DNA from: Methanoculleus marisnigri JR1 | GTDB taxonomy: Archaea; Halobacteriota; Methanomicrobia; Methanomicrobiales; Methanoculleaceae | DNA: 61,935 nucleotides | NCBI RefSeq assembly: GCF_000015825.1 | Contig: NC_009051.1 | Location: 636,760-698,694, forward strand | Direction of reading: 5' to 3' | Part shown: positions 10,148-44,100 of the stretch, piece by piece | Layout: the number at the start of each line of letters is the position of its first letter | Position numbering within the stretch: the stretch's first letter is position 1 | Made by a program: the position numbers and the translations under genes | The notes under the pieces: generated by a model | Databases searched by the model: none | Told to the model about the DNA's origin: nothing | Seen by the model: the letters and a program-made list of their open reading frames with translations, nothing else

Positions 10148-10155
10148 AGCGTTTA

Positions 10156-10197
10156 CCTGGAGGAGTGGTTTACCCCTCCTCTCCTCCTGGTTTTGCC
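10156..10197 (+). terminator. Hairpin terminator after the dockerin-bearing gene
   Basis: CCTGGAGGAG at 10156-10165 pairs with CTCCTCCTGG at 10181-10190 with one mismatch and is followed by TTTTG. Confidence 0.6.
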
Positions 10198-10365
10198 ACA
10201 GGTGCCGCCCCCTAACACCTGTACAGTGTGTGGACATATTGGTTATGGACGGGTCTTTTCACCCGGCCCGGTGGGCGTTTTCTGCTCCCGTATCGTGCAG
10301 CACGGCCCTGAACGTTCTTTCCTCGAGAATCTCCGGCTCTCCCGGGGCCGGACGGTGGATACATC

Positions 10366-10371
10366 TATATA
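10366..10371 (+). promoter_or_regulatory. TATA box of the flippase gene
   Basis: TATATA lies 26-31 bases before the ATG at 10397, so the transcript should begin next to the start codon. An upstream GTG at 10373 is excluded because it lies directly after the box. Confidence 0.6.
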
Positions 10372-10396
10372 GGTGCCGACCGATACAGGCGACCGA

Positions 10397-15768: not shown

Positions 15769-17229
15769 ATGATAGACAGGCAAAATATACTGAGACTGGC
15801 TGCAGCACTTCTGGCGTGCTGCCTTATTATTCCGGCACTCTCCCCGGTAAGTGCAGCCGAGTCCGCAAGTCCGGCCACGCTCACCGTGGCTGCAAGCGAT
15901 AGCACCGAACTGTCGAAGAACCAGGCAGACTACGTCTGTGACGGGGTCGACGATCAGGCCGAGATCCAGGCGGCGCTCGCCGCGCTGCCCGACGGCGGTA
16001 AAGTAGTCCTTTCGGACGGTACGTTCAACTGTGCCGGTGTCATCGCGCCGCCGGCAGGCACGACGCTCTCCGGGCAGGGTCCGGATGCGACGAACCTTGT
16101 GTTCACCAACGACGGACGTATCAGCGTCGACCAGGAGAACGTGGCCCTGGACGGGTTCCACATCGAGGGCAGCGGCTACAGCAGCGGTGTCAAGTGGCTC
16201 GGTGTGATAACCATCCGGGCAAGCCACGCGAAGATCCACAACATTGAGGGAACGGCGGACACGAGCATCCAGGCGGTCTTCCTCCTGCTGCACGATCCGG
16301 CGGTCTATGCCCCGACCCTCGAGGATGTCGAGTTCATCAACTGCAAGGCCGTGGACACCGGGACCTACGGGTTCATCCACAACGCATGGGGATCGTCCAA
16401 CAAGGTGATCAAGGACGTCCGCTACGATAACTGTCAGGCGATCAACTGCGGGAGCAAGGGTGCGTTCAACCCCTGGATCACCGGGTTCGACTTTGCGGAA
16501 CTCAACGACATGGACGGCCTTCGGGTGACGAACTGTCTTGCGGAAGGCAACCTGGAGTCCGGGTTCCACTTCGAGTTCGACCCCACCGTGACGGACGCCG
16601 TCCTCGAGAACTGCGTGAGCCGCAACAACGGCCAGAAGCCCTACCCGACGGTACCTTACAAGCAGAGCGACATGTCGACCCACTACTTCGGGTGCGGCTA
16701 CTACGCCCCGAACTGTGACGTGACGTTCAAGAACTGCGTCGCGGAGAGCAACTCGCTGTATGGGTTCTACGCGACGAACGGCGGCAAACTCTACGACTGT
16801 GTCGACAAGGACACCGGCGCCGGGAAGACTGACTATACCTACCGTAAGCCGGCCGGCTACTACAGCATCCCGTGCCGCTCGGCCGATCCCGCCCTGGTGC
16901 TCGAGAACTGCAAGAGCATCGACTCGCACGGCTACGGCCTGCAGGTCGATCTCGCGAGCAACATCCGGATCGAGAACTTCGAGCTCGTGAACCCGGCAGG
17001 GATCGACGGCAAGGGTGCAAGCCTCGGCGGTACGAACGGCCAGTTCAGCAATGCCGAAGTGGACATCCACGCCTCCGGTGACCGGGCCGAGACGCTCGTC
17101 TGGGCGAAGAACAACCAGAACGTCCAGTACACCGGAGATATAACCTCCGCCTCCGAAAAGGCGTTCCTGGTCGAGGGCGGCCAGAACGTCCAGACGGACG
17201 GCATGGCGGTTGCGTCTGCCGGCGCGTAA
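15769..17229 (+). CDS. Secreted parallel beta-helix surface protein
   Basis: A 486-residue exported protein: signal peptide (about 1-29, LAAALLACCLIIPALSPVSA), then the same beta-helix as the proteins at 5503 and 7574, without an anchor, CARDB or dockerin. It carries the shared N-terminal signature YVCDGVDDQAEIQAALAALP and the DMSTHYFGCGYYAP segment. The DNA is nearly identical to the other copies over long central stretches. The absence of any cell-wall anchoring module suggests release or attachment by non-covalent contacts. A GAGG site precedes the ATG, and a hairpin terminator with eight T follows the stop. Confidence 0.87.
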   Translation: MIDRQNILRLAAALLACCLIIPALSPVSAAESASPATLTVAASDSTELSKNQADYVCDGVDDQAEIQAALAALPDGGKVVLSDGTFNCAGVIAPPAGTTLSGQGPDATNLVFTNDGRISVDQENVALDGFHIEGSGYSSGVKWLGVITIRASHAKIHNIEGTADTSIQAVFLLLHDPAVYAPTLEDVEFINCKAVDTGTYGFIHNAWGSSNKVIKDVRYDNCQAINCGSKGAFNPWITGFDFAELNDMDGLRVTNCLAEGNLESGFHFEFDPTVTDAVLENCVSRNNGQKPYPTVPYKQSDMSTHYFGCGYYAPNCDVTFKNCVAESNSLYGFYATNGGKLYDCVDKDTGAGKTDYTYRKPAGYYSIPCRSADPALVLENCKSIDSHGYGLQVDLASNIRIENFELVNPAGIDGKGASLGGTNGQFSNAEVDIHASGDRAETLVWAKNNQNVQYTGDITSASEKAFLVEGGQNVQTDGMAVASAGA

Positions 17230-27975: not shown

Positions 27976-29090
27976 GGATACTCCGTGTCACCAGCGATCT
28001 CTATCCCTATGTCGTAGGAGGTTTGGGGGTGCATGCTCGAGAGATGTCCAAGTCCCAGGTGAAGTTGGGGCATGAGGTGACCATACTCACAACGAGTATG
28101 GCTGATAGAATGCCGGATAATCTGGACGGGTTCCGGGTAGCCTGTTTTAAGAATAACGCGAAACTGCTGGGCAACACCATAAGCTTAGGGTTGCTCTTCA
28201 AACTATTCCGAATCCGCAAGAGTTACGATATCATTCATGCGCATTCCCACCTTTTCTTCTCGACCAATGTCTGTGCCCTGATCAGAAAGATCGGTTCATC
28301 CCCGTTGGTGATCACCAACCATGGAATCATGTCCGCCAGCGCCCCCGACTGGTTCAACCTGCTCTATCTCAAAACAATCGGGAGGTGGACACTGAATACC
28401 GCAGACAGGATTATCTGTTATACCGAGGAGGAGAAGGAAAACCTCATCAGCATTCTCCACATCCCCGAATCGAAAATTGCTGTGATTCCAAATGGTATTA
28501 ATACAAAACAATTTCATCCCCGGGCGGGTGATCATGCTGCAGATACGATCAACCTCCTCTGGGTGGGTAGATTCGTTAAAGGAAAAGGTGTGGAGTATAT
28601 CGTGCAGGCAATGGATATTCTGGTCAAGGAAATACCGAGCCTGCACCTGACTCTGATTGGGGAAGGGCCGGAGAGGGATTGTATCCGCGAACTTATTGAG
28701 AGCCTGGAATTAGACAATAATATCAATATCATCGATTTTGTTCCCTATGATGAGATGCCCTGGTTTTTCCAGGATTCTGATATCTTTGTGCTCCCAAGCC
28801 TGCACGAAGGGGTACCTCGAACAGCACTGGAGGCGATGTCCTGTGAGTTACCTGTCGTGATCTCCGACTTGCCCCATTTGAGAGACCTGATCGATGGCGG
28901 GGGCGTGATGTTTCCGAAGAAGGATGTCCAGGCTCTTGTTGATCATCTCCGGGTTCTTATCTTCGATGACGATAAACGGACAAAGATGGGACGGAACGCC
29001 AGGGAGAAGATCGTGTGGGAGTATTCGTGGGAGCGGATCGTTGCCAGAACACTCAATGTTTATCAGGAAGTCATTTCAAGTGCACATTGA
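27972..29090 (+). CDS. GT4 family glycosyltransferase
   Basis: 372 residues starting at a TTG, with GGAGG seven bases away. The N-terminal loop VGGLGVHAREMSK, the donor-half segment LLWVGRFVKGKGVEYIVQAM and an intact EX7E motif in PSLHEGVPRTALEAMSC identify a retaining GT4 enzyme. First intact gene of the AT-richer island; 12 bases separate it from the CapK-like gene, so the pair is an operon. Specificity unknown. Confidence 0.92.
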   Translation: MRILRVTSDLYPYVVGGLGVHAREMSKSQVKLGHEVTILTTSMADRMPDNLDGFRVACFKNNAKLLGNTISLGLLFKLFRIRKSYDIIHAHSHLFFSTNVCALIRKIGSSPLVITNHGIMSASAPDWFNLLYLKTIGRWTLNTADRIICYTEEEKENLISILHIPESKIAVIPNGINTKQFHPRAGDHAADTINLLWVGRFVKGKGVEYIVQAMDILVKEIPSLHLTLIGEGPERDCIRELIESLELDNNINIIDFVPYDEMPWFFQDSDIFVLPSLHEGVPRTALEAMSCELPVVISDLPHLRDLIDGGGVMFPKKDVQALVDHLRVLIFDDDKRTKMGRNAREKIVWEYSWERIVARTLNVYQEVISSAH

Positions 29091-29102
29091 AGTTGGGGGG
29101 TT

Positions 29103-30383
29103 ATGAGTCATTTACGGAAAGCATTCTACCTGCAGAATCTCATGAAACAACAATGGTTGAAGCCGGAGGAGCTGGATGCCGTTCAGGTAAAGATGCTCAG
29201 GGGGATACTAAAGCATGCCTATGCAAATGTGCCGCTATACCGCGATAAATTCCGATCGACAGGTGTATACCCTGATGATATTAAGTGCGTCGAGGACCTG
29301 CAAAAACTTCCATTGACAACTAAAAATGATGTCCAGGAAAGTTTTCCTTCCAGAATACTGCCGCCGGGCACCGATCTCAGCAGGTGCTGGATCTCCCGGA
29401 CAAGCGGTTCGACAGGTATCCCGTTCAGGATGGTCTATGGCACGAGAGATGAGGATTACCAGAAAGCTGTTGCTCTCCGGCCAAACCTGAGTTGTGGCCA
29501 AAATCTTCGAGACCGATGGGCCGTTTTCACCTCCCCGAGCCATGTCGTGAAAAAGAAATGGTTCCAGAAACTGCGAATTTTCACCCCTGAATTTGTTTCA
29601 TTGTTTGATAAGCCCGATGATCAAATCCAGGCTTTAAAACAGATTAATCCGGATGTTATCGACGGGTATGCATCATCAATTCATCTGGTTGCAAAAAGGT
29701 TGCAGGAAACTGGTACCGATGGGATACACCCGAGACTGATCTACAGCACATCCGAACTGCTCACTCAAGATATGCGCCGTTGTATCGAGACTACCTTTGG
29801 AGTGGATGTTCTTGACCAGTTCGGGTGCGTCGAACTTGGCCGGACCGCCTGGGAATGTCATGAACATGCCGGATATCATATCGACTGTGATGCGGTAGTT
29901 ATGGAATTTCTACGGGACGGTTCGGCGGTTGCCCCGGGGGAGCGAGGGGAAATGGTGTACACGGGATTGTACAATTACACAATGCCGTTAATCAGGTACG
30001 CCGTTGGGGATGTCGGTGTTCCCAGCGATGAGATCTGTCCCTGCGGCCGGGGACTGCCGCTGATGAAACTTATTGAGGGACGCTCTGATGCCTTTATGAA
30101 AGTTCCCAACGGGCAGATCTTCTCTCCCATTATCTGGACGGTGCTCATGAGGGAGATCCCCGGCATTGGACAATTCAAGGTAATCCAGGAGAGAATTGAC
30201 CGCCTGAATGTGTTGGTCGTTAAGGGTTCGGATTTTTCAGGGGCAACGATCCCGCAGATTCAACGAGAGATCAAGGCTGCCATGGGTGAGGAGATGGTGG
30301 TTGACGTGGATATCGTTGAGGAGATCCCGCGGGACCCTTCGGGAAAGGTCAGATGTGCTGTCTCAAAGGTGGAAATTCAATGA
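29103..30383 (+). CDS. CapK/PaaK-like adenylate-forming enzyme
   Basis: 426 residues of the ANL superfamily, closest in style to phenylacetate-CoA ligases and to the CapK proteins found in capsule clusters. The ATP-binding motif is SRTSGSTGIPF (about 99-109), and the C-terminal part ends in VEEIPRDPSGKVRCAVSKVE, retaining the lysine-bearing GK region of the hinge domain. CapK-type proteins in polysaccharide loci are thought to activate a carboxylate for transfer to a sugar, but the substrate is not established. It lies between GT4 genes in a plus-strand run. Confidence 0.85.
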   Translation: MSHLRKAFYLQNLMKQQWLKPEELDAVQVKMLRGILKHAYANVPLYRDKFRSTGVYPDDIKCVEDLQKLPLTTKNDVQESFPSRILPPGTDLSRCWISRTSGSTGIPFRMVYGTRDEDYQKAVALRPNLSCGQNLRDRWAVFTSPSHVVKKKWFQKLRIFTPEFVSLFDKPDDQIQALKQINPDVIDGYASSIHLVAKRLQETGTDGIHPRLIYSTSELLTQDMRRCIETTFGVDVLDQFGCVELGRTAWECHEHAGYHIDCDAVVMEFLRDGSAVAPGERGEMVYTGLYNYTMPLIRYAVGDVGVPSDEICPCGRGLPLMKLIEGRSDAFMKVPNGQIFSPIIWTVLMREIPGIGQFKVIQERIDRLNVLVVKGSDFSGATIPQIQREIKAAMGEEMVVDVDIVEEIPRDPSGKVRCAVSKVEIQ

Positions 30384-30543
30384 TCTTGGTATACTCCGCT
30401 AAAAACAAAGAAAAACTCTTGGCCTCAGTAAACGGAGTCAAACTCCGGGTACGCGTGTCTATATATAATATGAGGCTGCAGAGGGATTCTCTTGCGGTAT
30501 CATCTTCTTCGACGGATTGGGGGATCGTTTTTTGGAGGTTTGA

Positions 30544-30696
30544 CGGGAGAGGTTGCCGGAATCTCTAAAAACAGGAGAACGGAGGTCGTATACGTTGGTG
30601 TTGAGGGGATCCGAAGAACTGCTCGGGAAAGGTCGGGCATACCGTTTCGATGGTGACGGCCAGAGAGCGATCCCAATACCCGGTGGTGAGATGTAG
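30544..30696 (+). pseudogene. Possible 3' remnant or small ORF before a GT4 gene
   Basis: In the 312-base gap after the CapK-like gene one frame is open from 30544 to a TAG at 30694-30696. It encodes a peptide ending LGKGRAYRFDGDGQRAIPIP plus five residues, with coding-like composition. The TAG shares one base with the GTG start of the GT4 gene (TAGTG), which is how real coupled genes are joined in this region. A GGAGG before the TTG at 30595 could also start a 33-residue protein. It is either a small gene or the tail of a deleted one. Family not recognised. A TATA-like CTATATATAAT lies near 30457. Confidence 0.35.
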
Positions 30697-31877
30697 TGAG
30701 GATTGGGTATTTTACAAGCAGCTTTCCGCATAGGGATCCGGGAACTGACAGAGTATTAATTCCTCACGCGTACGGTGGGGTGGAGAATGGTACGTACCAA
30801 TTGGCAAAGCAGATGGCGAAGAAGGGTCACGATGTTTTTGTATTTACCACATCCGACAATGGCGGAGACTCATACGAAGAATACGGTAACATCCACATCC
30901 ATCGATACAGTAAGAACTTTTCCATTGGGCGGGCCCCGATCTCTTTCGGTTCGCTATATAAACCAATTATCTCGGGTATTAAACTCGATATCGTCCATGC
31001 AAGGATGGGAAACCTCCCGGTTCCGCTAACTGGTTACTGGTACTCCAGACGGCATAGCGTACCATACATCGTCTCTTATCATGGAGACTGGGATGCTACC
31101 TTTGGAAGCCCCGGTCGGAGAGTGGGCGTTTTTCTCTTTAATAATCTGTTGTGCGATTATATTTTATCAAACGCGGATAAGATAATCGCTCTTTCAAAGG
31201 AGCATGCTCATGAATCTAAAATTTTGGGAAAATATCTCGATAACATTGTAGTTATCCCGAACGGTCTGAATCCTGAGGAGTTTGAGATCCCGTATACGAA
31301 GGAGCAGTGCAGGGAGAATTTAGGTTTACCGGGAAAAGCAAAGATTATCTTGTTTTTAGGTTCGCTCACTCCGATAAAGGCACCTGACATTCTTGTAAAA
31401 TCAATGAAAATTGTTCTGGATTCGATTCCGGACGCATACCTTGTTATCGCCGGCGATGGGCCGATGGAGCAAGAACTCATTGAGTTGACAGAAAGACTTG
31501 GAATCGGGGCTTCAGTTCGATTTACAGGTTTCGTCTCTGACGAGAAGAGTCAATACTATAAGGCTGCCGATATATTCGTGCTCCCATCAAGACATGAAGC
31601 ATTTGGTAACGTCTTATTAGAAGCATCTGCATCCGGCCTGCCGATTGTTGTGAGTGATATCAGGAGCGTTAGAGCCATCGTCGATGAGGAGTGTAATGGC
31701 CTCTTCGCACAGATCGACGATGAGGTGGATTTTGCTCAAAAGATTGTTTATCTTTTGCGAAATGAAGTGGTCAGGAGGGAAAAGGGCGCGAATGCACGGG
31801 AAAAATGCGAACCGTTTACCTGGGACGCGATTGCGACGAAGACGGAGCGACTTTATCTGGGTGTTTTAAATGAGTGA
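30696..31877 (+). CDS. GT4 family glycosyltransferase
   Basis: 393 residues from a GTG start with a GGTGAG site. Typical N-terminus (MRIGYFTSSFPHRDPGTDRV, then AYGGVENGTYQLAKQM), donor half IILFLGSLTPIKAPDILVKS, and an intact EX7E in PSRHEAFGNVLLEASAS. Its start overlaps the stop of the preceding small frame. The codon use is AT-rich like its neighbours and unlike the GC-rich genes outside the island. Sugar specificity unknown. Confidence 0.92.
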   Translation: MRIGYFTSSFPHRDPGTDRVLIPHAYGGVENGTYQLAKQMAKKGHDVFVFTTSDNGGDSYEEYGNIHIHRYSKNFSIGRAPISFGSLYKPIISGIKLDIVHARMGNLPVPLTGYWYSRRHSVPYIVSYHGDWDATFGSPGRRVGVFLFNNLLCDYILSNADKIIALSKEHAHESKILGKYLDNIVVIPNGLNPEEFEIPYTKEQCRENLGLPGKAKIILFLGSLTPIKAPDILVKSMKIVLDSIPDAYLVIAGDGPMEQELIELTERLGIGASVRFTGFVSDEKSQYYKAADIFVLPSRHEAFGNVLLEASASGLPIVVSDIRSVRAIVDEECNGLFAQIDDEVDFAQKIVYLLRNEVVRREKGANAREKCEPFTWDAIATKTERLYLGVLNE

Positions 31878-31935
31878 AGATTTCTCACCAGTAATCTCTT
31901 AAGTAAAGGGAATGTGGATTTCATGGGTGTTTTGA

Positions 31936-33069
31936 GTGCCGGTTACGAATGATACAAAGATAGCGGTGGTGACATTTCCTGTGAGCAAGTCCGGGAGTGG
32001 GCCGCTTTTAAATCTTGCAGAAGTTCTGCTAAAACGGTCAAACAATCCGCTGTATGTTATAACCGGGAACGAGGGATCGAAGGTCGGCAACATCGATGCC
32101 AGAGTTCGAGTTACAAGTATATCTCATCGACCAAAGCAGCATATCTTCAGTAGAGGCATAGCATACGCCATTACGCAGCTAAGGATCTCGGTTTCCATAC
32201 TTAAGGTGGCAAAAAGTGTTGATGCGTGGTTATTTTTTGTAGGTGGGGAACTGCTGATATTTCCGATAGTTTCCGCAAAATTAACTCGTAAACCGGTGAT
32301 ACTATTGTTTGCCGGTTCTCCATTGTATCAGTCAACGGTGCAAAAAAATAGGATGAGGCCGGTCATCTTCTTGATATCTACGTTTAATCGGTTATTATGC
32401 GAGAACCTTATTGTCTATAGCCCGATGCACATTTCTGAATGGAACCTCGGACGATATCGCCACAAAATCCTCATCGCCCACCGGCACTACCTCGATTTCG
32501 AGACCTTCACCGTCACCACCCCCCTACCCGACCGCCCGGCCCTCGTCGGCTACATCGGCCGGCTGAGCGGGGAAAAGGGTGTCCAGCATTTCGTCCAGGC
32601 CCTCCCCGCCATCCTCAGCGACCGGCAGGATCTCCGCGTGCTCATCGGTGGGGACGGGCAGCTAAAAGAGACGATCGAGGCCACTCTGCAAGAACAGGGA
32701 GTCTCCGCCAGCGTCGAGCTCCCGGGCTGGATCTCCCACGATGACCTCCCCCGATACCTCAACCAGCTCCGCCTCCTTGTCCTCCCCTCCTACACCGAAG
32801 GGCTCCCGAACATCATGCTCGAGGCGATGGCATGCGGAACCCCGGTGCTTGCCACACCGGTTGGGGCGGTACCGGATGTCATAGTGGATGGCGTGACAGG
32901 ATTTATTATGGAGAACAACTCCCTTGAGTGCATTGCGGAGAACGTGAACCGGGCGCTGAACTCCCCGGACCTGGAGCGGATCGCGGAGGACGGGAGGCGG
33001 TTTGTGGAGGAGCATTTCACGTTTGAGCGCGTGGTTGCTCGATGGAAGGAGGTGCTTGAAGAAGTATGA
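31936..33069 (+). CDS. GT4 family glycosyltransferase with mosaic composition
   Basis: 377 residues from a GTG start. The donor half shows LVGYIGRLSGEKGVQHFVQA and PSYTEGLPNIMLEAMACG with the EX7E motif intact. The DNA changes abruptly near 32440-32470: the acceptor-binding half is AT-rich with island-type codons, the donor-binding half is GC-rich with mainly C or G at third positions. The reading frame continues without interruption, so it should be functional. It looks like a recombinant that joined a foreign N-terminal half to a resident C-terminal half. Confidence 0.9.
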   Translation: MPVTNDTKIAVVTFPVSKSGSGPLLNLAEVLLKRSNNPLYVITGNEGSKVGNIDARVRVTSISHRPKQHIFSRGIAYAITQLRISVSILKVAKSVDAWLFFVGGELLIFPIVSAKLTRKPVILLFAGSPLYQSTVQKNRMRPVIFLISTFNRLLCENLIVYSPMHISEWNLGRYRHKILIAHRHYLDFETFTVTTPLPDRPALVGYIGRLSGEKGVQHFVQALPAILSDRQDLRVLIGGDGQLKETIEATLQEQGVSASVELPGWISHDDLPRYLNQLRLLVLPSYTEGLPNIMLEAMACGTPVLATPVGAVPDVIVDGVTGFIMENNSLECIAENVNRALNSPDLERIAEDGRRFVEEHFTFERVVARWKEVLEEV

Positions 33070-33223
33070 TCCTGGGTTGTGGGACACCTTAAGTTCATGG
33101 CGGGTTCATTTATCAGCGAAATCGCCGGGATTTGTGGAGGAAGAAGGCGTTCTGTCACGAACGGGTTGTTTTTTTTGCGTTCGTCTGTGCGGAATAAACA
33201 CTATTGCCGGGTTTGGGATCTGA

Positions 33224-35095
33224 ATGAGACTCTCCCTTGCTACCATAACAGATAACCTTGACAGGAATCTTGCAGTTGTGGGAGCAATTGCTTCGTTGTT
33301 CTTGATCTCCTACACAGCAATAAGCATCAGTCGGGTCGTATATGTGTTACCCGGGGTTTTAACGCTCCTTGCCTGCGTGACGTGGCTCGTTATGAGAAAG
33401 AGGGTCTCGTTACCGTTCCAGATTGGAGAATCCAGATCAAAGGTGCATTTATTTCTTCTTCTCTATGTCATATTTCTGATTGGAAGTATTCTCTCCGTCG
33501 GGTTCAGGCCCGAACTCTATGAAAGACCGCTGCTTTTCTTTATATCGACATCATTAATGGCCGGAGCAATTGCCTGCCAGATTCTGTTCTCAAATGAACG
33601 GCAGAAGTGGCTCATTATACCCCAGATTATCGCTCTCGGTGCGATTATTGTATGGTCTCAGTTACTGCTATTCCCGAATGTGGTGGGAGCGGACCCCTGG
33701 GCCCATCAGATGGTTACTACCTGGATTTTAGAGTCGCAAGCGATTCCCGGTGGGAGGAATTACAGCTATTTGCCGATATTCCATCTTATGGTCGCAATGA
33801 CCTCGCTGGTTACCGACCTGGGTTATAAGCTTGCTGCGATGCTATCGGTGAGTTTAGTTCAGATCATCTGTAATGTACTATTTTTGTACTTGCTTGCAGG
33901 TTTAATCTTTAAAAACCATAAAGTCGGCTTGTTTGCCTCTTTGATGGTTGTGATAGCAAATCACCATATTTTCATGAGTCTCGGTTCGATTCCGACCTCG
34001 TTTGCCGCCGTATTCATCCCAATCGTGTTTTATGTGGCTTTGAAAGATCTTTCAGATCTATCGATCTCCAAAAATCTAATTATAATTATTCTATTTCTTA
34101 CCACTATTTTTACACACACGCTGGTGTCTGCATGTTTGGCAATACTCCTGCTCGCATCATGGCTGTCGACGGTTGCTTTTAATGCAATTCACTCGAGGGA
34201 ACATGCCACTATACCTGTGCTGCTCCCTGTCCTCTTTACGCTCGCAATGTATTCGTGGTGGGTTTACGCTAGCGGTCACACGAAAATATTGGCGCAATTG
34301 ATTGAATTGGGATTCAGCAGGGATTTTTTCGTCGCGAAAGGAGTGCCTGGGGCCACATCGACATATTTGTCGGCGATCCCGGTGGGTGAGCAGGTCTTCA
34401 ATCAGTTTGGGATGTTTTTGTTTTTTGCCCTCTCTTTTATCGGCGTATTTTACTTATTGTCTCGAAAAGACAACAAAAGTTTTATTATAGCAGTTATTGG
34501 GATTATCCCTCTCGCGATCGGATTTTTATCATTACTATTTGGATTTGGAGTGATTGAACACCGATGGTGGTATTTTGCGCAAATATTACTGAGTGTTCCA
34601 CTTGGAGCAGCAATTGTACTGCTCCTTAAGGCATCGATGATAACCAGTGAAAAAATAATTGCACTTGGTTCGCTCATTTCCATCTCTACGTTTGCGTTCC
34701 TACTGATTATGAGTCCCAATGCTAACGTGGACAATCATATGTTTTCGCCAAATACTGCGGTTAGATCTTCGCTTACCGAATCTGAATTGCACTCGATAAA
34801 TTCTATCGCTGAGATGTACACCAGAGAGATCGGGACAGAAAAGTATATCACAAATGTTATATCGTTTCTACCCCTCGATATCGACCTTACCCAGATAGAT
34901 GAAAGCATATTCACTGGAGATTATTCTGAATTGGAGCAAAGGGACGTATTAATTCGAGAGGATATAAAAGAAAATAGTTTTAAGTTGTTTCAAGGCCCGT
35001 ATCGACTGGATTATGATCTCGGACAGAGAATAGAAGGACAGGGGTATTCTAAAACATATAATGCTAACTCGGTCACCATGTATTCTAATATATGA
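33224..35095 (+). CDS. Polytopic membrane protein, DUF2206-like, possible GT-C glycosyltransferase or polymerase
   Basis: 623 residues with about twelve transmembrane segments and a soluble C-terminal tail (about 500-623). After an early helix it has VVGADPWAHQMVTTWILES (about 155-173), the kind of Asp-containing external loop seen in GT-C enzymes and oligosaccharyltransferases. The fold and general plan match the protein at 11767, but the sequence is AT-rich and diverged. A role in polymerising or transferring a lipid-linked glycan fits the neighbours (GT4 genes, flippase). No biochemical assignment is possible from the window. Confidence 0.65.
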   Translation: MRLSLATITDNLDRNLAVVGAIASLFLISYTAISISRVVYVLPGVLTLLACVTWLVMRKRVSLPFQIGESRSKVHLFLLLYVIFLIGSILSVGFRPELYERPLLFFISTSLMAGAIACQILFSNERQKWLIIPQIIALGAIIVWSQLLLFPNVVGADPWAHQMVTTWILESQAIPGGRNYSYLPIFHLMVAMTSLVTDLGYKLAAMLSVSLVQIICNVLFLYLLAGLIFKNHKVGLFASLMVVIANHHIFMSLGSIPTSFAAVFIPIVFYVALKDLSDLSISKNLIIIILFLTTIFTHTLVSACLAILLLASWLSTVAFNAIHSREHATIPVLLPVLFTLAMYSWWVYASGHTKILAQLIELGFSRDFFVAKGVPGATSTYLSAIPVGEQVFNQFGMFLFFALSFIGVFYLLSRKDNKSFIIAVIGIIPLAIGFLSLLFGFGVIEHRWWYFAQILLSVPLGAAIVLLLKASMITSEKIIALGSLISISTFAFLLIMSPNANVDNHMFSPNTAVRSSLTESELHSINSIAEMYTREIGTEKYITNVISFLPLDIDLTQIDESIFTGDYSELEQRDVLIREDIKENSFKLFQGPYRLDYDLGQRIEGQGYSKTYNANSVTMYSNI

Positions 35096-35381
35096 TTGAA
35101 AACTCATACCCTGTTATGTGTCTTGTGGAGGTGAAGGGAGAGCGGAACGATCCCGGCTTTCAGGCTAATATCGGCTCAGGTGAATGATAAGAGACGAATC
35201 GAGTCCGACATCCACTTCGATCCGGTAAGAATGAAAACCTGAATTTGGTTCCAGCAAAGCTCTGATTCATAATTATATCAAGGAACAGTAGTGTTAAGCG
35301 TTTTTTGAGAGAATTATTCCTTCTTACAAGCAAGATAAGTGCTCGTTCCTGAATTTGACATCTCTGGTAGGCTTCACCGGA

Positions 35382-36464
35382 TTAGAGAGAGTTTCGATAG
35401 ATCTCTTCTAATTCGGCAGCAACTGCCTCCCACCTGTATTTTTCTGCTTTTTCTCTGTTATTGTTCGATATGTCTTTCCGCAACGGTTCATTCCGCAGGA
35501 CCTTCAGTAGCGCTTCGGCCATCCGTTCCTGATTCATGGCATCGACAAGGTATCCGTTTGTGCCGTCTTCAATGATATCTGGTATGCCCCCCACACGTGT
35601 TGCAACAACAGGCAGGCCACAGGCCATCGCTTCAAGAATTGTAACAGGGAAGCCTTCGGACAGGCTGGGGAGGACAAAGGCCTCTACCTGATTCATGTAA
35701 TCCTGAACCCTCTCGTGTGGGACTTTGCCGACAAACTCAACGCATTCTCTTATCCCGAGACTGTCTGTCAGGGTTTCGAGATGCTCCCTCTCATCACCGT
35801 CGCCAACGAGGATCAGTTTCGCTTCAGGCAGATCCTGGTGAACTATGCTCATTGCCTGAAGGAGGTGCCGGACACCCTTGACGGGGTGCAGACGGCCGAC
35901 GAACAGAACTCTTTTGCCAGGATCCCCTCGCTCTGCCTCTCTCTCCGCATTCTCGTTTAGATCAATCCCGTTTGGAACTACAACTACATCCCTGCTATAG
36001 ATTGCTTGCATGGAATCTTTCATATGTTCTGTGAGGGCGATCACTGCACTGGCATTTTTCAGAATCCCCTTAGCGGTTAATTTGTTGAACCAATCTGGAA
36101 GGTAGACATCAGACCCTCTCCCATAGATCACATAAGGGTTCTTCATCAGTCTATTTGAGAGGAGAGCCGGCATTCCGCTTCCGAGGCCCTGTGCATGGAC
36201 AATACCTGGATTAATTTTTCGTAATGTCCTGATGATATTGACCCAGAAAGCAAACACACCGACAAAGCGGATTCGGACCCTGGGCAGACGATGGGTGTGA
36301 AACCCCTTCTCACAACTCTCCTCAGGCAGGCCTTCATCCAGGGATGTGATCACATGCACCTCATGCCCGTGTTGTGCCAGGTGCTCTGCCATGTGGTACG
36401 TTGCAATCTCTGTCCCGGCAAGCCATTTTGGAGGGAAATTACTCACTATTATCGCAATTTTCAT
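35382..36464 (-). CDS. GT4 family glycosyltransferase
   Basis: 360 residues, the only minus-strand gene within the island. MKIAIIVSNFPPKWLAGTEI opens the acceptor half, RVLFVGRLHPVKGVRHLLQA and PSLSEGFPVTILEAMACG (intact EX7E) mark the donor half. An AGAGG site precedes the ATG. It faces the polytopic gene at 33224 and is transcribed away from the asparagine-synthase-like genes. Specificity unknown. Confidence 0.92.
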   Translation of the reverse strand: MKIAIIVSNFPPKWLAGTEIATYHMAEHLAQHGHEVHVITSLDEGLPEESCEKGFHTHRLPRVRIRFVGVFAFWVNIIRTLRKINPGIVHAQGLGSGMPALLSNRLMKNPYVIYGRGSDVYLPDWFNKLTAKGILKNASAVIALTEHMKDSMQAIYSRDVVVVPNGIDLNENAEREAERGDPGKRVLFVGRLHPVKGVRHLLQAMSIVHQDLPEAKLILVGDGDEREHLETLTDSLGIRECVEFVGKVPHERVQDYMNQVEAFVLPSLSEGFPVTILEAMACGLPVVATRVGGIPDIIEDGTNGYLVDAMNQERMAEALLKVLRNEPLRKDISNNNREKAEKYRWEAVAAELEEIYRNSL

Positions 36465-36937
36465 TTTATGGCCTCTTAGCAGAGATTTTGCGGTTTGGGA
36501 GTTATCAATTGAGATCTAGGCATTGGACAACCAGATCAGTTACCACCGTGGTTTGTCTCTGTTCTTAGATTGGTATTCGTTCTTCATTTCCAAACACTGG
36601 ATTCCATATAAGTATTTCCAGCGGGGCGTTTTGGGGATATTTTCGATGAAGTTCCATTTGTCTTACATTCCTGCTCCATAATAAATTGTGTAAATGGGGA
36701 CTATTGTACCCAGTTTTTAACCATTCCCATGAGTACACGCTCGCTATCGGTTGTTAGTTAATCTGAAATTTAGAGGTCATGTTTTTTTAATTGCAGGTAT
36801 TGGAGTCTTTGTTAATCAAACTGCTGTTCCATTATATGAGCATGGCCTAAAATTGTCTGAGAAAGATCTGTCCGTGTTAGGATATTCTTATGTATGATAC
36901 CGATAATGGGGCCTCTCAAACAAACTAAGGGGGGAAC
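36465..36937. other. AT-rich intergenic region with a short coding-like tail
   Basis: Contains the open segment annotated at 36733-36897 and otherwise AT-rich DNA expected to hold divergent promoters for the genes at 36464 (minus) and 36938 (plus). An AAGGGGGGAA tract is the ribosome site of the latter. Confidence 0.4.
36733..36897 (+). pseudogene. Possible C-terminal remnant of a membrane protein
   Basis: A 54-codon open frame without an ATG. The translation (RYRLLVNLKFRGHVFLIAGI, then VNQTAVPLYEHGLKLSEKD) looks like protein: a hydrophobic segment followed by an amphipathic tail, ending at TGA 36895-36897. No start codon with a ribosome site was found, so it may be the end of a gene whose front was lost. 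Family not recognised; it could also be chance. Confidence 0.3.
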
Positions 36938-38659
36938 ATGTCAAAAGTAATCTACGCATGCAGTAGAAGCAGACCTTTCGATTCAAAAGATAGGAGGCGG
37001 ATACTAGAGATATGTAAGAGACTTGGACCCGATAATCTTTCTGCAACTGTGGATCATGAGGTTTTTGTACACGATAAGATAGCATTCGGGATAATGAATC
37101 CCACTAAATCCATTATGTGCAATGGCACCAGCCTGTTATTGGGACATTTATATGAACACAGCAGCAGGTTGTATGAACCATTATCTGAATCCCCTGATGG
37201 CTCATATGCACTTTTTCGGGATAGTCCCGGTTACTTAGAGGTGGTAAGCGATCCCGCCGCTTCAAGGACGATCTGGTACTACTGTGATGATAGTTTATTT
37301 GTATCTTCAACATCGCAAAGAGCCATCATTATGTTCATTGGTGGCTTTGTTTTTGATAAAAGAGTGATCCCATGGATGCTATCAACCGGATCATTAGGGC
37401 CTGAGTTATCATGGGATAAGAGATTACAGAGACTGGGTCCAGATTCCTCAGTTATCCTCGATAAAGAGAACTGGTCTATATCCACCAAACACCTCCCCAT
37501 CAAGTTTGCTGAGGTACCTCGCTCTGACAGTGAACATCAACGATTGCTAACAGATGCTATTAAGAAAACGATTGAATCCTTCAAAGGCATTAACTATGAT
37601 GAATGGGTGCTGCCTCTTTCTGGTGGATACGACAGCAGGGGGATACTGTGCTTTATTAATAGCACCGGGGAAAACACCGGGGATTTACAAACAATAACCT
37701 GGGGTCTTAAGGATGCAATCAATGAAAATGGCAATGATGCCAAAGTCGCGAAAGACCTGGCCCGGACGTTAGGTGTTAAGCATAGTTATTACCATACAGA
37801 TATCTCTGAAGAACCAATTGCGAAGGTTATTGATAGATTCATATTATGTGGAGAGGGTCGTATTGACCACCTTTCGGGATATATGGATGGGTTTAAACTT
37901 TGGAGTAAGTTACATGAAGACGGCGTACAAGGAATAATAAGAGGAGATGAGGGATTTGGATGGAATCCTGTCTCATCGAGATTAAATGTTTTACAAAGTG
38001 TCGGGTGCAATCTTTGCTCGAACATTCCTAATTTAAAAAACGTAATAACTGACTACAAACTTCCCAATCAGGAGTTACCTGCCGACCTCGAAATGAGGGA
38101 GAGTGAATCTCTAGAGCAGTGGAGGGATAGGCTCTACCACGTATTCCGGCTTCCAGCAGTACTTGCTGCTCTCTCTGATCTTAAATTCTCTTACGTAGAG
38201 ATAATCAACCCCTTAACCTCCAGATCGATTCTTCATCAAGTAAGGGAGTTGCCAGATCACCTGAGAACAGATAAGGCGTTATTCAGGTCCATTGTTGATG
38301 CAATTGGTCCAAATATTGTGTATGCAGACAAAGGAGCTAATCTACCACCAAGAGATATTCTGAAAAAGGAGGAAGTGATGAATTTATTACGACAAGAAAT
38401 TCAATCTGAGCGTGCAAGGGAAATATTTGGGCCTGACTTTGTATCCTTTATACTGAAAAGCATTAAAACAGATTCGGTGAGCCAAGCGTCGAAAAGATCG
38501 CTCGAACAGAAGATCATTAATATGATACCTTCGTTTATCAAAAACCTGGCTAGTAAAGCGTATTCACCAGTTATAGACGGGAATATATTGGCTTTTCGGG
38601 TATACATCATAATAAGGATGCATGAAATTTTAAGCAATGATTGTAAACATAGGATTTAA
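36938..38659 (+). CDS. Asparagine-synthase-like protein without glutaminase cysteine
   Basis: 573 residues in the asparagine synthetase B layout. The C-terminal ATP-pyrophosphatase domain has the PP-loop LPLSGGYDSRG (SGGYDSR at 228-234), which adenylates a carboxylate. The N-terminal half still resembles the class II glutaminase fold (SDPAASRTIWYYCDDSLFVS) but begins MSKVIYACS and has no Cys at position 2, so glutamine hydrolysis is not expected. Such proteins in sugar loci can amidate uronic acids (WbpS type) using ammonia or another amine. Strong AAGGGGGG site. AT-rich, probably acquired with its neighbour at 39117. Confidence 0.82.
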   Translation: MSKVIYACSRSRPFDSKDRRRILEICKRLGPDNLSATVDHEVFVHDKIAFGIMNPTKSIMCNGTSLLLGHLYEHSSRLYEPLSESPDGSYALFRDSPGYLEVVSDPAASRTIWYYCDDSLFVSSTSQRAIIMFIGGFVFDKRVIPWMLSTGSLGPELSWDKRLQRLGPDSSVILDKENWSISTKHLPIKFAEVPRSDSEHQRLLTDAIKKTIESFKGINYDEWVLPLSGGYDSRGILCFINSTGENTGDLQTITWGLKDAINENGNDAKVAKDLARTLGVKHSYYHTDISEEPIAKVIDRFILCGEGRIDHLSGYMDGFKLWSKLHEDGVQGIIRGDEGFGWNPVSSRLNVLQSVGCNLCSNIPNLKNVITDYKLPNQELPADLEMRESESLEQWRDRLYHVFRLPAVLAALSDLKFSYVEIINPLTSRSILHQVRELPDHLRTDKALFRSIVDAIGPNIVYADKGANLPPRDILKKEEVMNLLRQEIQSERAREIFGPDFVSFILKSIKTDSVSQASKRSLEQKIINMIPSFIKNLASKAYSPVIDGNILAFRVYIIIRMHEILSNDCKHRI

Positions 38660-39116
38660 CTATCTAACTATGAGCATTGCATCAAGAGTGAGTTGGTGCA
38701 ATAAAGCACCTAATTATCCAGTAACTGAAATTTCACATGTTCTCCTTCGAACCATTCGTAACTTCTCATTCTTCTTCGCCCAAAAACTGACATGTCCCTC
38801 GAACAAGACAACGTTTATTTCATCGTGAGCCGCTGTGTATGTTTCTGTTTCCTCTCCCTCCTCGCCGTGGGCGCCCATTTAAACAGTTGTCTCCAATCAC
38901 GGTCTCACTCCAGGAGCACTTCCCTAAGACGATTGTTCTCTTTCAATAATACTTATTATAACATAGATCTCATCTGAACTCTCCCACTGGCAGCATGAAA
39001 ATCATAGTCTTCAAGTAAAACCAGGAGGACTAATCTAAAGAATAGATGAACACACGTTCACCAGAATTTGTCACGTGACGAATTAGCACCTCAAAAGATT
39101 ACTAATATAAATTCTC
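38660..39116. other. Intergenic region without recognisable gene
   Basis: AT-rich at both ends with a GC-richer part near 38830-38900. Short open frames (such as 38637-38828) lack ribosome sites and coding character. A TAATATAAATTC tract ends directly before the ATG at 39117, too close for a normal TATA box with leader; a TTATTATAACATAG motif near 38950 is an alternative. Confidence 0.4.
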
Positions 39117-40637
39117 ATGTACAGGGTTCAGGGGTTCGATGAAATGATATCTTTGAAAGGTGGAGATAGTTATACGACCAGCAAATTTGGCGATTTTTGT
39201 CCCTATTGGACGAAAGACGAAAATGGTCGTGTACATATTTCGGAGTCTTTTGATGAAATAATAACTATAATCCCCTCAGAAAAACGATTTATAGATCCTG
39301 TTGCAGTTGCGTCACTATTGCAGTTTAACTATATCCACGGAAATCGAACCTTGGTTAAAGGCGTTAATAGGATCCCATGGCGGGCAACATTGCTGAGTAA
39401 CGGCACGCTTATGCGGGAACCACCAATCCCTCACGATAACATATATGCGTCTCCATTCGAAATCGCATCCAATCTGAGACGCTTACTCTTAAATGAACTA
39501 ACCAGTTATATAAAAAATTATTCTAATGTATATCTGCTGCTTTCTGGTGGTTATGATAGCAGGGTGACCGCAGGTTTGCTGAAGGTATTGCAAGATGAAT
39601 CACCTTCATTCAACGTAACAGCAATTACCTGGGGTGTCGAAAGAAGCAGGGACGTGGATTACGCAAAAAAAATCTCTAGATTATATAAATGGGACTGTAT
39701 CCACACCCCATTGAATGAAAAAACGCTTTATGATGCAATTTTTGAGAGTGTTCGATATTGCGGTTCTGAAGTGACCGGAATCAATCTACATGGTGAGAAA
39801 TTTTTCAAAAATTTAAGCAAAGATGACGTGGTATTGGCTTCAAGTTTCGGCGACAGTATTGGACGGGGTGAATTTAGCGGACGAAATTTAAGTAAAATTA
39901 AACTTTTAAAATTTAAAAATTATCGGGGATGTATGTTATATGAGTTACATAAAAATTGCATTCCTTATTTGAATCAAGATCGAGAAACTGCTTTTGAATT
40001 ATCCGAAAATAAGCCATATTCAGCACTATGTGAGTTGGACTTGCAAGAGAACTATATGAGAAGATTGATAGTTTCCGCAATGGGCTATATCAGGCAATGG
40101 ACCCACTTAGAACAAATGTTCACCTCAGATGATGTCGTTTCATATATCTGGTCACTTAATCCTCGCTGTCGCAATAATTTGATATACGCGGAATTATTTA
40201 AGCAAATAGATGTGAGACTGTACTCAATGCCCTGGGCAAGAACAGGGAGATCATTCGATGGGAATGTGGATAATACCGAATTAACAAAAAGTCATCACGA
40301 ATACAATAGGTGGTTGAAAGAACATTTTTCAAACATGCTATATGATCGTATATTTAATGGTACATTGTCTGAACTCAATTTCTTCAACATGGGTAATGTA
40401 AAAAAATTGTGGGATAGCTGGCAAAATGATCGAATGGATGATTATCAATTAATCTTAATGATCGCTCAGTTAGAGATTCTTAGGGATATCTATAACCTCC
40501 ATTGGGATGGAAATAATGCCAAAAATTTGATATTTTCGCCTTTACTTCGACAGTTAACATCTAAATGCATTTCCGTTGAATATGCCCTGAAAGATTCTAA
40601 ATTGGTGAGAAATTTACGATACAAGATCAAACGGTGA
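39117..40637 (+). CDS. Second asparagine-synthase-like protein
   Basis: 506 residues with the same PP-loop domain, LLLSGGYDSRV (SGGYDSR at 143-149), and AITWGVERSRDVDYAKKI, the second ATP-site segment. The N-terminal domain is shorter than in the protein at 36938 and has no cysteine nucleophile near its start, so it is at best a glutaminase-like remnant. The 5' end could lie slightly elsewhere since no ribosome site was seen. Carboxylate amidation or amide-bond formation on a sugar or lipid is the likely chemistry; the substrate is unknown. Strongly AT-rich, even compared with its island neighbours. Confidence 0.78.
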   Translation: MYRVQGFDEMISLKGGDSYTTSKFGDFCPYWTKDENGRVHISESFDEIITIIPSEKRFIDPVAVASLLQFNYIHGNRTLVKGVNRIPWRATLLSNGTLMREPPIPHDNIYASPFEIASNLRRLLLNELTSYIKNYSNVYLLLSGGYDSRVTAGLLKVLQDESPSFNVTAITWGVERSRDVDYAKKISRLYKWDCIHTPLNEKTLYDAIFESVRYCGSEVTGINLHGEKFFKNLSKDDVVLASSFGDSIGRGEFSGRNLSKIKLLKFKNYRGCMLYELHKNCIPYLNQDRETAFELSENKPYSALCELDLQENYMRRLIVSAMGYIRQWTHLEQMFTSDDVVSYIWSLNPRCRNNLIYAELFKQIDVRLYSMPWARTGRSFDGNVDNTELTKSHHEYNRWLKEHFSNMLYDRIFNGTLSELNFFNMGNVKKLWDSWQNDRMDDYQLILMIAQLEILRDIYNLHWDGNNAKNLIFSPLLRQLTSKCISVEYALKDSKLVRNLRYKIKR

Positions 40638-41246
40638 TCATCGCTATTTTGAGGGGCTATCATTATCAGACCCCTTTTGAATTCCTCCCCAGACCTCAGG
40701 TTACTGAAAGTTAGACCCTCTCGGCAAGTTAAAGCGATCTATCGCCTTTAGATGAATAATACAGATAAAACGGAATATCTTATCTGTATATGCGATTTGC
40801 TGTTTGTACACCACCCTCGGTTGGGCCAATCTTCTTTATACAGTTGAAATTTTCCCGCCAATTTCTTCTGTTATTACGCTCGTTATTTGCTGTCTCTCTA
40901 ATTTAGTGTGGTGTGCTCATTATAATGGCTTATTGAAACCATTTGGTAGACTGGCTCTGGGAAATTATCTGACATCACCTCCCTCTGACGAAGCTGCACA
41001 TCGGCTGACACCGGCGGGACCCCTGTGAGTTGTTTTAGGGGAGGCCTACCGGTGACGGAACATCCGGGAATGCCAGGAAATAGCCGAGAGTATTGAGGGA
41101 TTTCTTCCCGGGGACTCGTGCATAACATCACGTTCCTCAAATAGCATGCGAAATAGATCCGAACGATAAACCCGGGGTTGATCAAACCTTAGATCCATTT
41201 CAGAACGACGAAGTGTATTGGAATCATTTATTTAATTTAACATTTA
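40638..41246. other. Intergenic region of 609 bases without recognisable gene
   Basis: AT-rich first half, GC-richer from about 40970 to 41130. Open frames on both strands (40804-41028 plus, 40898-41185 minus) show no motif or ribosome site. The end is an AT-rich tract (TTTATTTAATTTAACATTTA) before the flippase, likely its promoter. Confidence 0.4.
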
Positions 41247-42623
41247 ATGTCGCTTGAGGGTATTTCTAATATAATGTCTAAGTTGCCCGGTTTTGAAAAA
41301 TTGAGGAATATCTTTCTTCAAATTGGGTATCGGCAGTATAGCAGCGCCATGAGCAGTCCTCTGTGGAAAGGTGTAGTTGTAATTGGCGGTGGGACTGCGC
41401 TTGCTCAGGGAATAACTATAATCTCAACACCCATTATAACTAGACTCTATATCCCTTCAGACTTCGGGCTTCTAGGGATCTATAGTTCGATTCTCACAAT
41501 TCTGCTGGTTATAGCATCGTTACGGTATGAATACGCGATACCAGTCCCAAAAGATTCGTCCAGAGCAGCAAATATTCTTATCCTGTGTTTAATGATCATC
41601 ACCGGAGTCACTGGTATACTCTGCATTTCGTTCTTACTGATAGGAAGCAGGATCGCGGAGATGTTAGACTTGCAAGATCTCCTGCCATATTCATGGCTGG
41701 TTCTAGTTGGTCTTCTGGGCGCTGGTATTTATCAAGCTCTCAATTACTGGGCCATCCGGCAACGGGACTATCCCCGTATTACCAGGACAAAGATCAATCA
41801 GAGTCTTGGAGGCTCTCTCAGCAAAATTTTATTCGGCTTATTATCATTAGGGCCGCTTGGACTAATACTAGGCCATATAGTCTCAAATGTTGCTGGGATT
41901 TACACCTTTATAAAGGCTATCGTGAAAAAGGATCGGGACGCATTTGGGGACATTTCAGTTATTGGGATTAAGTCAGTAGCACAAGATTATCGATCCTTCC
42001 CAATGTACACGGCCCCGGCGACCCTTCTCTTTGCAGTTTCCTTGCAGATCCCTGTATTCATGCTTACGGTTATGTATGGTCTCGATGTTGTTGGTTGGTA
42101 CACGCTTGCTCACCAGATGTTGGCTCTGCCTGTGGCCCTTATTTCAGGGTCAATGGCTCAGGCGTTCTATGGCGAAGCAGCGAAGGGTGTTCGTGAGAGT
42201 CCAGAGATTTTAAGGCGTTTATATCTAGATACAACAAAAAAATTAGCGCTGATTGGGATCCCGTTACTGGGTATGATCGCAATTATTGCTCCATGGATCT
42301 TCCCAATTGTTTTTGGCAGTGCCTGGGAAGAAGCGGGTTTGTTCTGTCTTCCGTTGGCCTTGGTTGCCGTGTCACAGTTTATTGTGACACCAACATCTAA
42401 ACTGGCCGTGTATGGTTTTAATCATTGGGATTTATATTTCAACTGTGCCAGGACGGTTATGGTCTTTGGAGGATTTTATTTCGCTAGCATGTTCAACTTT
42501 GGGCCACTGGTCACACTGACACTGTACGGCGCCATTATGGCGGTTATGTATTTTGTACTCTACTTGTTGAACCTATGTGCGATAGATCGCTTACATCTGG
42601 GAGGGCGATCTTGTTTTCAGTAA
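41247..42623 (+). CDS. Oligosaccharide flippase (MOP superfamily, Wzx-like)
   Basis: 458 residues with about twelve to fourteen transmembrane segments. The VVVIGGGTALAQGITIISTP segment and RLYIPSDFGLLGIYSSIL are typical for the Wzx/lipopolysaccharide exporter group. It should flip the lipid-linked glycan made by the island enzymes to the outer face. A later ATG (MSKLPGF or MSSPLWK) cannot be excluded as the real start because no clear ribosome site precedes 41247. It differs from the flippase at 10397, so the two probably handle different glycans. Confidence 0.88.
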   Translation: MSLEGISNIMSKLPGFEKLRNIFLQIGYRQYSSAMSSPLWKGVVVIGGGTALAQGITIISTPIITRLYIPSDFGLLGIYSSILTILLVIASLRYEYAIPVPKDSSRAANILILCLMIITGVTGILCISFLLIGSRIAEMLDLQDLLPYSWLVLVGLLGAGIYQALNYWAIRQRDYPRITRTKINQSLGGSLSKILFGLLSLGPLGLILGHIVSNVAGIYTFIKAIVKKDRDAFGDISVIGIKSVAQDYRSFPMYTAPATLLFAVSLQIPVFMLTVMYGLDVVGWYTLAHQMLALPVALISGSMAQAFYGEAAKGVRESPEILRRLYLDTTKKLALIGIPLLGMIAIIAPWIFPIVFGSAWEEAGLFCLPLALVAVSQFIVTPTSKLAVYGFNHWDLYFNCARTVMVFGGFYFASMFNFGPLVTLTLYGAIMAVMYFVLYLLNLCAIDRLHLGGRSCFQ

Positions 42624-42840
42624 CCTGAAGCAAATCGGCCTATTTTTTACAAAATCTAAACGTGCTCCTGCCTGACCGGATATGGCCGCCCCTACTTAAT
42701 CATCCTAAGTTCATGATACGTTCTGATTTCTCGCTAACGTATGGAGTTTCAATGGCGAAGAGTGACACGGATTTCAGATGGTGGGTAAAGAGGTTATATC
42801 TGACCATGCGACGGTTAGTCGGTAAGGGGAAATCCCCTAA

Positions 42841-44100
42841 TCACAACGTACAATACACACACCCCTCCCGCATCCCGTTATTCCGCCGGAGCATCCCTGT
42901 CACGTCCACGACAATAGGCTTCCCGTTGCAGATCGCAAGCACATTCTCCAACGTCAGCCCCACAAACACCCCGTGCGGAGAATTCACGATAATGCAGTCC
43001 ACCGGCCCGCTGAGCCCCTGCAGCGACGCGACCGGCTTCGCCCCGAACCGCTCGATCTCCGCGGCCGCGAGGAGCGGGTCGTAGCCATAGACATCCACAT
43101 CGAACTCCTTGAGTTCGCGGACCATCTCCCCGGCCGGGCTCTCCCTTGTATCGGGGACGTTCTCCTTGTAGGTCAGGCCCAGGATGAGGACGTTCGAGTC
43201 GCGGATCACCTTGCCGGCCCGGTTCAGCTCCTTGATCGCGATCTCGGCGACGTGCTTGGGCATGGCGTCGTTGATCGCGCGGCCGGCCAGGATCACCTGC
43301 GGGTGGTAGCCGAGCTCCTCGGCCTTGTAGACCAGGTAGTAGGGGTCGACCGGGATGCAGTGGCCGCCGACGAGGCCGGGGCGGTAGTTGTGGAAGTTCC
43401 ACTTCGTCCCGGCGGCGTCGAGCACCGCCTTCGTCTCGAGACCCATCTTCCTAAAGATGAGGGAGAGTTCGTTCATGAGGGCGATGTTCAAGTCCCGCTG
43501 GACGTTCTCGATCACCTTCGCCGCCTCGGCGGTCCGGATGTCCTGTGCGACGTAGACGTTGGTCACGAGGCCGTAGAGCGCGGCAAGGCGTTCTGTCGTC
43601 TCCTTATCCATCCCGGCGACGATCTTAGTGATCTTCTCCAGTGTGTGGTCGGTGTCGCCCGGGTTGATCCGTTCGGGCGAGTAGCCGACGAAGAAGTCCT
43701 TTCCGCAGGTCTTCCCGGAGGCCCGTTCGAGGGTCGGGACCACGACCTCCTCGGTCAGGCCGGGGTAGACGGTCGACTCGAGGACGACGACGGCGCCGTC
43801 CCTGAGGTTTTGACCGACGGTCCCGGCGGCCGAGACGACGTAGGAGATGTCGGGGTCTTTCGCCTTCGTCACCGGGGTGGGGACGGCGACGATCACGACG
43901 TCCGCCTCCCTGATCGCGGCCGGATCCGTGGTGGCGAGGACCCTGTTGCCGGGCTCGGCGTTGATCCGCGCGATCTTCGTCGCGTCGAGGTCGTAACCGA
44001 TCGTCTTGAGATGGCGCGAGAACGCATCGGCGAGGGGATACCCGACGTAGCCCAGGCCGACGACGCAGACGGTTGTATCGTTCACGGATCCCTGAATCAT
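42841..44100 (-). CDS. UDP-N-acetyl-D-mannosamine dehydrogenase-type nucleotide-sugar dehydrogenase
   Basis: 419 residues. NAD-binding GLGYVGYPLA at about 15-24, central helix domain, and the catalytic cysteine in GGHCIPVDPYYL (C248). It oxidises C6 of a nucleotide sugar to a uronic acid in two NAD-dependent steps. The sequence is of the WecC/TviB kind, acting on N-acetylated hexosamines, but the exact substrate is not certain. It makes the carboxylate that the asparagine-synthase-like proteins upstream could amidate. Poly-G ribosome site; the epimerase gene lies 129 bases upstream on the same strand. Confidence 0.9.
   Translation of the reverse strand: MIQGSVNDTTVCVVGLGYVGYPLADAFSRHLKTIGYDLDATKIARINAEPGNRVLATTDPAAIREADVVIVAVPTPVTKAKDPDISYVVSAAGTVGQNLRDGAVVVLESTVYPGLTEEVVVPTLERASGKTCGKDFFVGYSPERINPGDTDHTLEKITKIVAGMDKETTERLAALYGLVTNVYVAQDIRTAEAAKVIENVQRDLNIALMNELSLIFRKMGLETKAVLDAAGTKWNFHNYRPGLVGGHCIPVDPYYLVYKAEELGYHPQVILAGRAINDAMPKHVAEIAIKELNRAGKVIRDSNVLILGLTYKENVPDTRESPAGEMVRELKEFDVDVYGYDPLLAAAEIERFGAKPVASLQGLSGPVDCIIVNSPHGVFVGLTLENVLAICNGKPIVVDVTGMLRRNNGMREGCVYCTL

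Follow-up and report, generated by a model that had tools for sequence, protein, structure and literature searches.

Evidence for recurrent domain-swap recombination in a mosaic GT4-type glycosyltransferase gene of methanogen glycan islands

The glycosyltransferase gene studied here, which lies in a 61,935-nucleotide stretch of the Methanoculleus marisnigri JR1 genome (the window, Table 1), joins an AT-rich front half and a GC-rich back half of incompatible histories. Very probably, one GC-rich 3′ segment has been brought repeatedly by homologous recombination into genes with unrelated fronts, which would re-wire the surface glycans that these enzymes help to make. The original prediction of domain-swap recombination within this GT4 gene was supported, as the two halves differ in their nearest relatives, in their trees and in the depth of their synonymous divergence. 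The idea of a single swap in one gene held as to the swap, but the pattern turned out to recur across the order Methanomicrobiales, in 25 loci, and is not confined to this gene.

Table 1. Features of the window, with positions counted from its first letter.
Feature	Position	Strand	Evidence or remark
Mosaic GT4-type glycosyltransferase gene, intact, 377 aa	31936..33069	+	PF00534; invariant R209, K214, E288-x7-E296
Variable, AT-rich front half, residues ~1-165; presumably the acceptor-binding domain	31936..32430	+	Pfam-negative, low identity
Junction, residues 166-181	32430..32480	+	GC3 change point, start of cross-species DNA homology, just before the linker
Shared back half, GC-rich; donor-binding domain carrying the E-x7-E motif	32435..33065	+	DNA common to ~23/27 loci
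Polytopic membrane protein of 623 aa, without Pfam match	33224..35095	+	Slot occupied by a large ORF in most homologous loci
Upstream GT4 gene of ordinary composition	30696..31877	+	Pfam, slot comparison
AT-rich glycan-biosynthesis island holding the mosaic gene	28000..43000	.	GC 0.36-0.54 except in the patch, against ~0.62 outside

The gene is a single open frame, uninterrupted across the composition break. The GC3 change point was found at codon 174/175 (window position 32458), with a GC3 of 0.47 before and 0.79 after it, which agrees with the AT-rich front and GC-rich back without a frameshift that had been predicted. The log-likelihood gain at this point was 21.5, compared to maxima of 7.4 in 1,000 shuffles and 10.2 in 100 shuffles, and to gains of at most 6.5 in each of eight neighbouring island genes; the 2-unit support interval covered residues 139-181. 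Past the stop codon, GC falls back to 0.47, and the feature is thus a lone GC-rich patch of about 600 bp within the 15-kb AT-rich glycan island rather than a gene reaching from one compositional environment into another, which refines the predicted picture. The GC content of the C half (0.62) is about the same as that of the window outside the island.

The product is a GT-B fold glycosyltransferase of the CAZy GT4 type. Pfam assigned residues 194-351 to PF00534 (Glycos_transf_1, E 1.5e-37), and R209, K214, E288 and E296, invariant in 26 sequences, correspond to the basic R/K pair and the E-x7-E motif of retaining GT4 enzymes. The front half (residues 1-174) had no Pfam match up to E 0.1, including to the GT4 N-terminal families PF13439 and PF13579; to our knowledge, this N-terminal domain is common in GT4 enzymes and is not required for GT4 membership. 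An AF2 model (pLDDT 88.6) showed two alpha/beta domains, whose arrangement is unreliable at its pTM of 0.55, and Foldseek matched the model to PglA, BshA and MshA with E-values of about 1e-18 to 1e-17. In the predicted structure the last strand of the N domain spans residues 178-180, the linker residues 181-202, and the first strand of the C domain starts at residue 203. The break (residues 166-181) is therefore close to the domain border, as had been proposed, but it precedes the predicted linker by about 5-20 residues and is not exactly on the border. In GT-B enzymes the N domain sets the choice of acceptor and the C domain that of the donor (PMC387263, PMC10937113), and by analogy with this biochemistry a swap of the front half would have changed acceptor specificity.

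The 25 related loci carrying the same back half, in glycan islands of the order Methanomicrobiales, are referred to here as the mosaic subfamily; sampling was by one genome per species, so that all comparisons are between species and not between strains. Mean amino acid identity within the subfamily was 73% for the C half and 28% for the N half, and fronts across the 25 loci were mostly 16-55% identical. Genes of the order whose back halves are 72-83% identical to that of the window gene had fronts at only about 20-35%, with G010 as the one exception; over all relatives, front-half identity to the window gene was mostly 16-35%. The nearest relative of the window front half was G010 (51-53%), and the nearest relatives of the back half were G011 and G006 (86%), whose front halves were only 26-28% identical to that of the window gene. 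The two halves thus do not have the same closest relatives.

Conserved donor-binding and variable acceptor-binding domains are common to glycosyltransferases generally (PMC387263), and C halves are the more conserved throughout the subfamily. Both facts would fit a history without recombination, in which the whole gene spread once and a constrained donor half was coupled to a fast-evolving acceptor half, as in a segmentally variable gene. We regard this history as very improbable, however, since in non-mosaic relatives the two halves are equally diverged (N 92% and C 90%, N 53% and C 52%, N 49% and C 54%). At N identities of 25-35%, the C half averaged 51% (maximum 60%) in non-mosaic pairs versus 77% (minimum 64%) in subfamily pairs, so that at equal N identity the mosaic C halves were 25-30 points more alike, without overlap in this band. 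Further arguments against it are that the front halves are polyphyletic, that synonymous sites too differ between the halves, and that GC3 shifts inside single genes at differing positions.

The trees of the N and C halves rejected each other in reciprocal tree tests. A single origin of the subfamily was rejected by the N data (dlnL 117, AU p = 1.8e-7), and its monophyly was accepted by the C data (AU p 0.35). In the N tree, the alignment of which is limited by N-half identities of 20-35%, supported clades mixed mosaic and non-mosaic genes (G051 and G157 with G060, support 99; G062 and G022 with x098, support 95; G005 with G047/G042, support 85), and at least 3-6 joins were needed. The C-half trees were weakly resolved; when eight N-sister pairings were forced on the C tree, three were rejected (p 0.011-0.012, uncorrected). 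Among those rejected on C-half DNA were G002+G067 and G011+G017 (p 0.012 each, uncorrected); G000+G010, the pairing of the window gene itself, was not rejected (AU p = 0.28).

Synonymous divergence separated the halves as well. Measured at four-fold sites against expectation, two core genes showed an excess of 0.45-0.51 within the genus, the C half one of 0.39 and the N half one of -0.01. Between families, the same comparison gave 0.06-0.10, 0.28 and -0.02, respectively. Back-half synonymous sites are thus unsaturated between families whose core genes are saturated, and those of the fronts are saturated within one genus. These excesses indicate that orthology of the N halves fails even inside a single genus, and that C halves crossed family boundaries after the families had diverged. 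Gene conversion biased towards GC, or constraint on codons, might act in place with only limited transfer and also keep the back half GC-rich and similar, and C halves are indeed GC-rich in all GC backgrounds, their GC3 not following host core GC3 (rho 0.21, p 0.39). We nevertheless give this explanation very little credence, because the synonymous conservation of the C half is lower than that of the core genes inside the genus and far higher than theirs between families, which is the mark of transfer and not of constraint. Additionally, the window genome holds no second C-half copy that could serve as a conversion donor.

Within the genus, C-half divergence did not track core divergence (rho -0.08), which gives no overall support to vertical descent of this half, although the window gene and G006 form a compatible pair (C 0.79, near the 0.83 of the core genes, in four-fold-site identity). 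Nor did the divergence of the first part of the C half track that of the second (rho 0.14, p 0.21), as expected of a recombining pool. The cross-over helix of the GT-B fold predicts that the C-terminal tail is inherited with the N half; such co-inheritance was rejected, with a rho of -0.12 against the N half and 0.22 against the C half.

All 25 subfamily genes had a GC3 break above that of their own shuffles, and no GC break was found at the border in 16 relatives with other back halves. The break lay at window residues 160-178 in 18 of the 25, and at 91, 189-190, 212-216 or 264 in the others. The onset of DNA homology coincided with the break, and did so too in most members where it is displaced, including G022 (212), x074 and G067b (both 216) and x077 (264). 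Shared DNA was limited to the 3′-terminal ~600 bp of the gene, where it was found in about 23 of 27 loci, versus usually 0-8 elsewhere, and its far end was near the stop codon or extended into the next gene. Several homologues come from MAGs, some of them visibly misbinned (Desulfitobacteriaceae, Bacillota and Syntrophorhabdus records), so that an assembly or binning artefact fusing the DNA of two organisms might be suspected. The probability of this is close to nil, because the window genome is a single 2.48-Mb contig and the in-frame pattern is also present in the named strains Methanoculleus sp. Afa-1, Methanoculleus sp. FWC-SCC3 and Methanospirillum stamsii Pt1. The MAG contigs L063, L073 and L074, labelled Desulfitobacteriaceae, Syntrophorhabdus and Bacillota, respectively, contain genes of methanogen type and are likely cases of misbinning.

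A constant half next to a variable one, together with a partial C-half relic in G002, could also suggest a programmed switch, invertible or cassette-based in the style of shufflons or hsdS, that exchanges fronts within a genome. This is extremely unlikely in view of the window genome, which contains exactly one close match to each half (a single N-half match and a single near-identical C half, without alternative N halves of the kind known from UGT1), no silent cassettes and no meaningful repeats flanking the junction. No recombinase was present among the island genes examined, and breakpoints vary between members. No relatives of the C half were found in viral contigs, and its plasmid matches were all below 60% identity. 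The lack of a second copy, of repeats and of a viral or plasmid carrier points to exchange between genomes.

As for the window gene's own event, the suggestion that a resident gene had received a foreign front is partly upheld. The host-like composition of the back half and its near-core identity to G006 fit a resident back half, but C halves also cross families, so that the reverse direction is possible too. As the pairing of the window gene with G010 is not rejected, the founding swap may predate the split between the two. The search for intact parents of the halves that had been suggested gave a result for the front only. The uniformly AT-rich G060, with 54-56% N and 60-61% C identity to the mosaic genes of one front-half lineage, is, judging by these identities, close to an intact relative of that lineage, but no uniformly GC-rich intact parent of the back half turned up among 232 genomes of the order or in a wider contig scan.

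Repeated recombination over the back half, the reading we prefer, would work as follows. The shared segment codes for the end of the N domain, the linker and the donor-binding domain, and DNA transferred between species would recombine homologously over the C half, many times. In most members the tracts would begin close to the domain border, in the remaining ones within one half or the other, and they would end just before the stop codon or within the next gene; junctions near the domain border would be the ones to survive. The donor-sugar site would thereby be kept and the acceptor site changed, and surface glycans would be re-wired without a new enzyme. The break and its recurrence, the incompatible histories, the unequal synonymous depth, the variable breakpoints and the single copy in the window genome are observed; homologous recombination as the route, the donor and acceptor roles of the halves and selection for glycan change are what we infer. 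The observed patterns suggest that cells rebuild their surface-sugar enzymes by swapping halves.

The slot order of upstream glycosyltransferase, mosaic gene and large downstream ORF is usually kept between homologous loci that are otherwise mostly unrelated at the DNA level. The upstream slot holds a glycosyltransferase of another subfamily in many of them, and the downstream slot a large, divergent ORF of 522-791 aa in most, whose product, where it was read, was a polytopic membrane protein. This downstream protein is possibly a polymerase or a GT-C enzyme. A bolder version of the recombination reading, which we put forward tentatively and hold to be rather doubtful, is that the GC-rich donor half serves as a standing recombination anchor of about 600 bp, over which methanogens of different families swap upstream acceptor halves and downstream membrane genes, forming a combinatorial glycan system at the level of the order. 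If this were true, a second glycosyltransferase family with the same break would make the anchor a general rule.

A second, unrelated Glycos_transf_1 family (L067:7934-9106, with L216, L217 and L218) shows the same AT-to-GC3 break, at codons 145-153 and in one case at 204, with fronts mostly 21-33% and backs 55-66% identical. The pattern may therefore be general among glycosyltransferase families.

Segmentally variable genes, among which glycosyltransferases have been described (PLoS Biol 2004, PMC387263), likewise combine a conserved donor-binding with a variable acceptor-binding domain, and the mosaic subfamily has the long conserved (C mean 73%) and long variable (N mean 28%) segments that define them. 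Their variability was read as divergence, however, whereas here the halves differ in history and age, with a composition break and movable breakpoints. The vertebrate UGT1 cluster (PMC1885805) also combines one constant donor-binding half with many acceptor-binding halves, but it does so by splicing variable first exons from a tandem array, whereas here each genome has one fixed combination made by recombination of DNA. Engineered "mix and match" GT-B chimeras (PMC10937113) show that domain-swapped products may retain activity, the N domain determining the choice of acceptor and the C domain that of donor; they are laboratory constructs, mostly of GT1 enzymes, unlike the natural and recurrent mosaics described here. 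In Haloferax, glycosylation genes for surface glycans are exchanged between archaeal lineages, with within-gene events, as here (PMC5867893); in the parts of that study available to us, the events are mainly within clades and a pattern of constant and variable halves is not reported. We found no direct precedent for natural exchange of GT-B domains by recombination in prokaryotes in the open literature, subscription journals being outside the scope of the search.

GT-B domain swapping is known as an engineering strategy, and its natural prokaryotic precedent is little documented. The subfamily offers about 25 natural experiments in which one donor half is set on many acceptor halves, making the functional independence of the halves and the key acceptor residues testable. 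Also testable is whether methanogen surface glycans evolve by recombination, much like bacterial serotypes. Whole-sequence trees of glycosyltransferases from such islands blend two histories.

Several minor observations were made in the related loci and elsewhere in the window. In L155 (G011), L156 (G006) and L157, the downstream membrane-protein gene (~9620-11470, gene orientation) is GC-rich over its first 59-260 codons and AT-rich over the rest, and the shared tract seems to continue past the glycosyltransferase stop codon in some species. The galU-like gene c10 of G011 (L155) and G006 (L156) has an AT-rich 3′ end, GC3 dropping from 0.86-0.88 to 0.45-0.50; such ends are perhaps further recombination ends at island borders. 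The relic in G002 (Methanoculleus sp. Yes49-05), at a second locus (L153:7797-8090, equal to L102:3361-3654), consists of the last 98 C-half codons only. It is flanked by an epimerase-like gene of opposite orientation, is itself followed by the downstream membrane-protein gene, and represents either a deletion or a recombination end within the C half. Within the window island, two adjacent proteins (36938-38659 and 39117-40637) each have only a weak Asn_synthase domain match. Outside it, positions 7412-10147 encode what reads by eye as a secreted beta-helix protein; its CARDB-like domains are repeated, its C-terminal repeat (DLNGDGNVDWADV...DVNGDGTVDWKDV) is dockerin-like, and its paralogues are encoded at 5503-7155 and 15769-17229.
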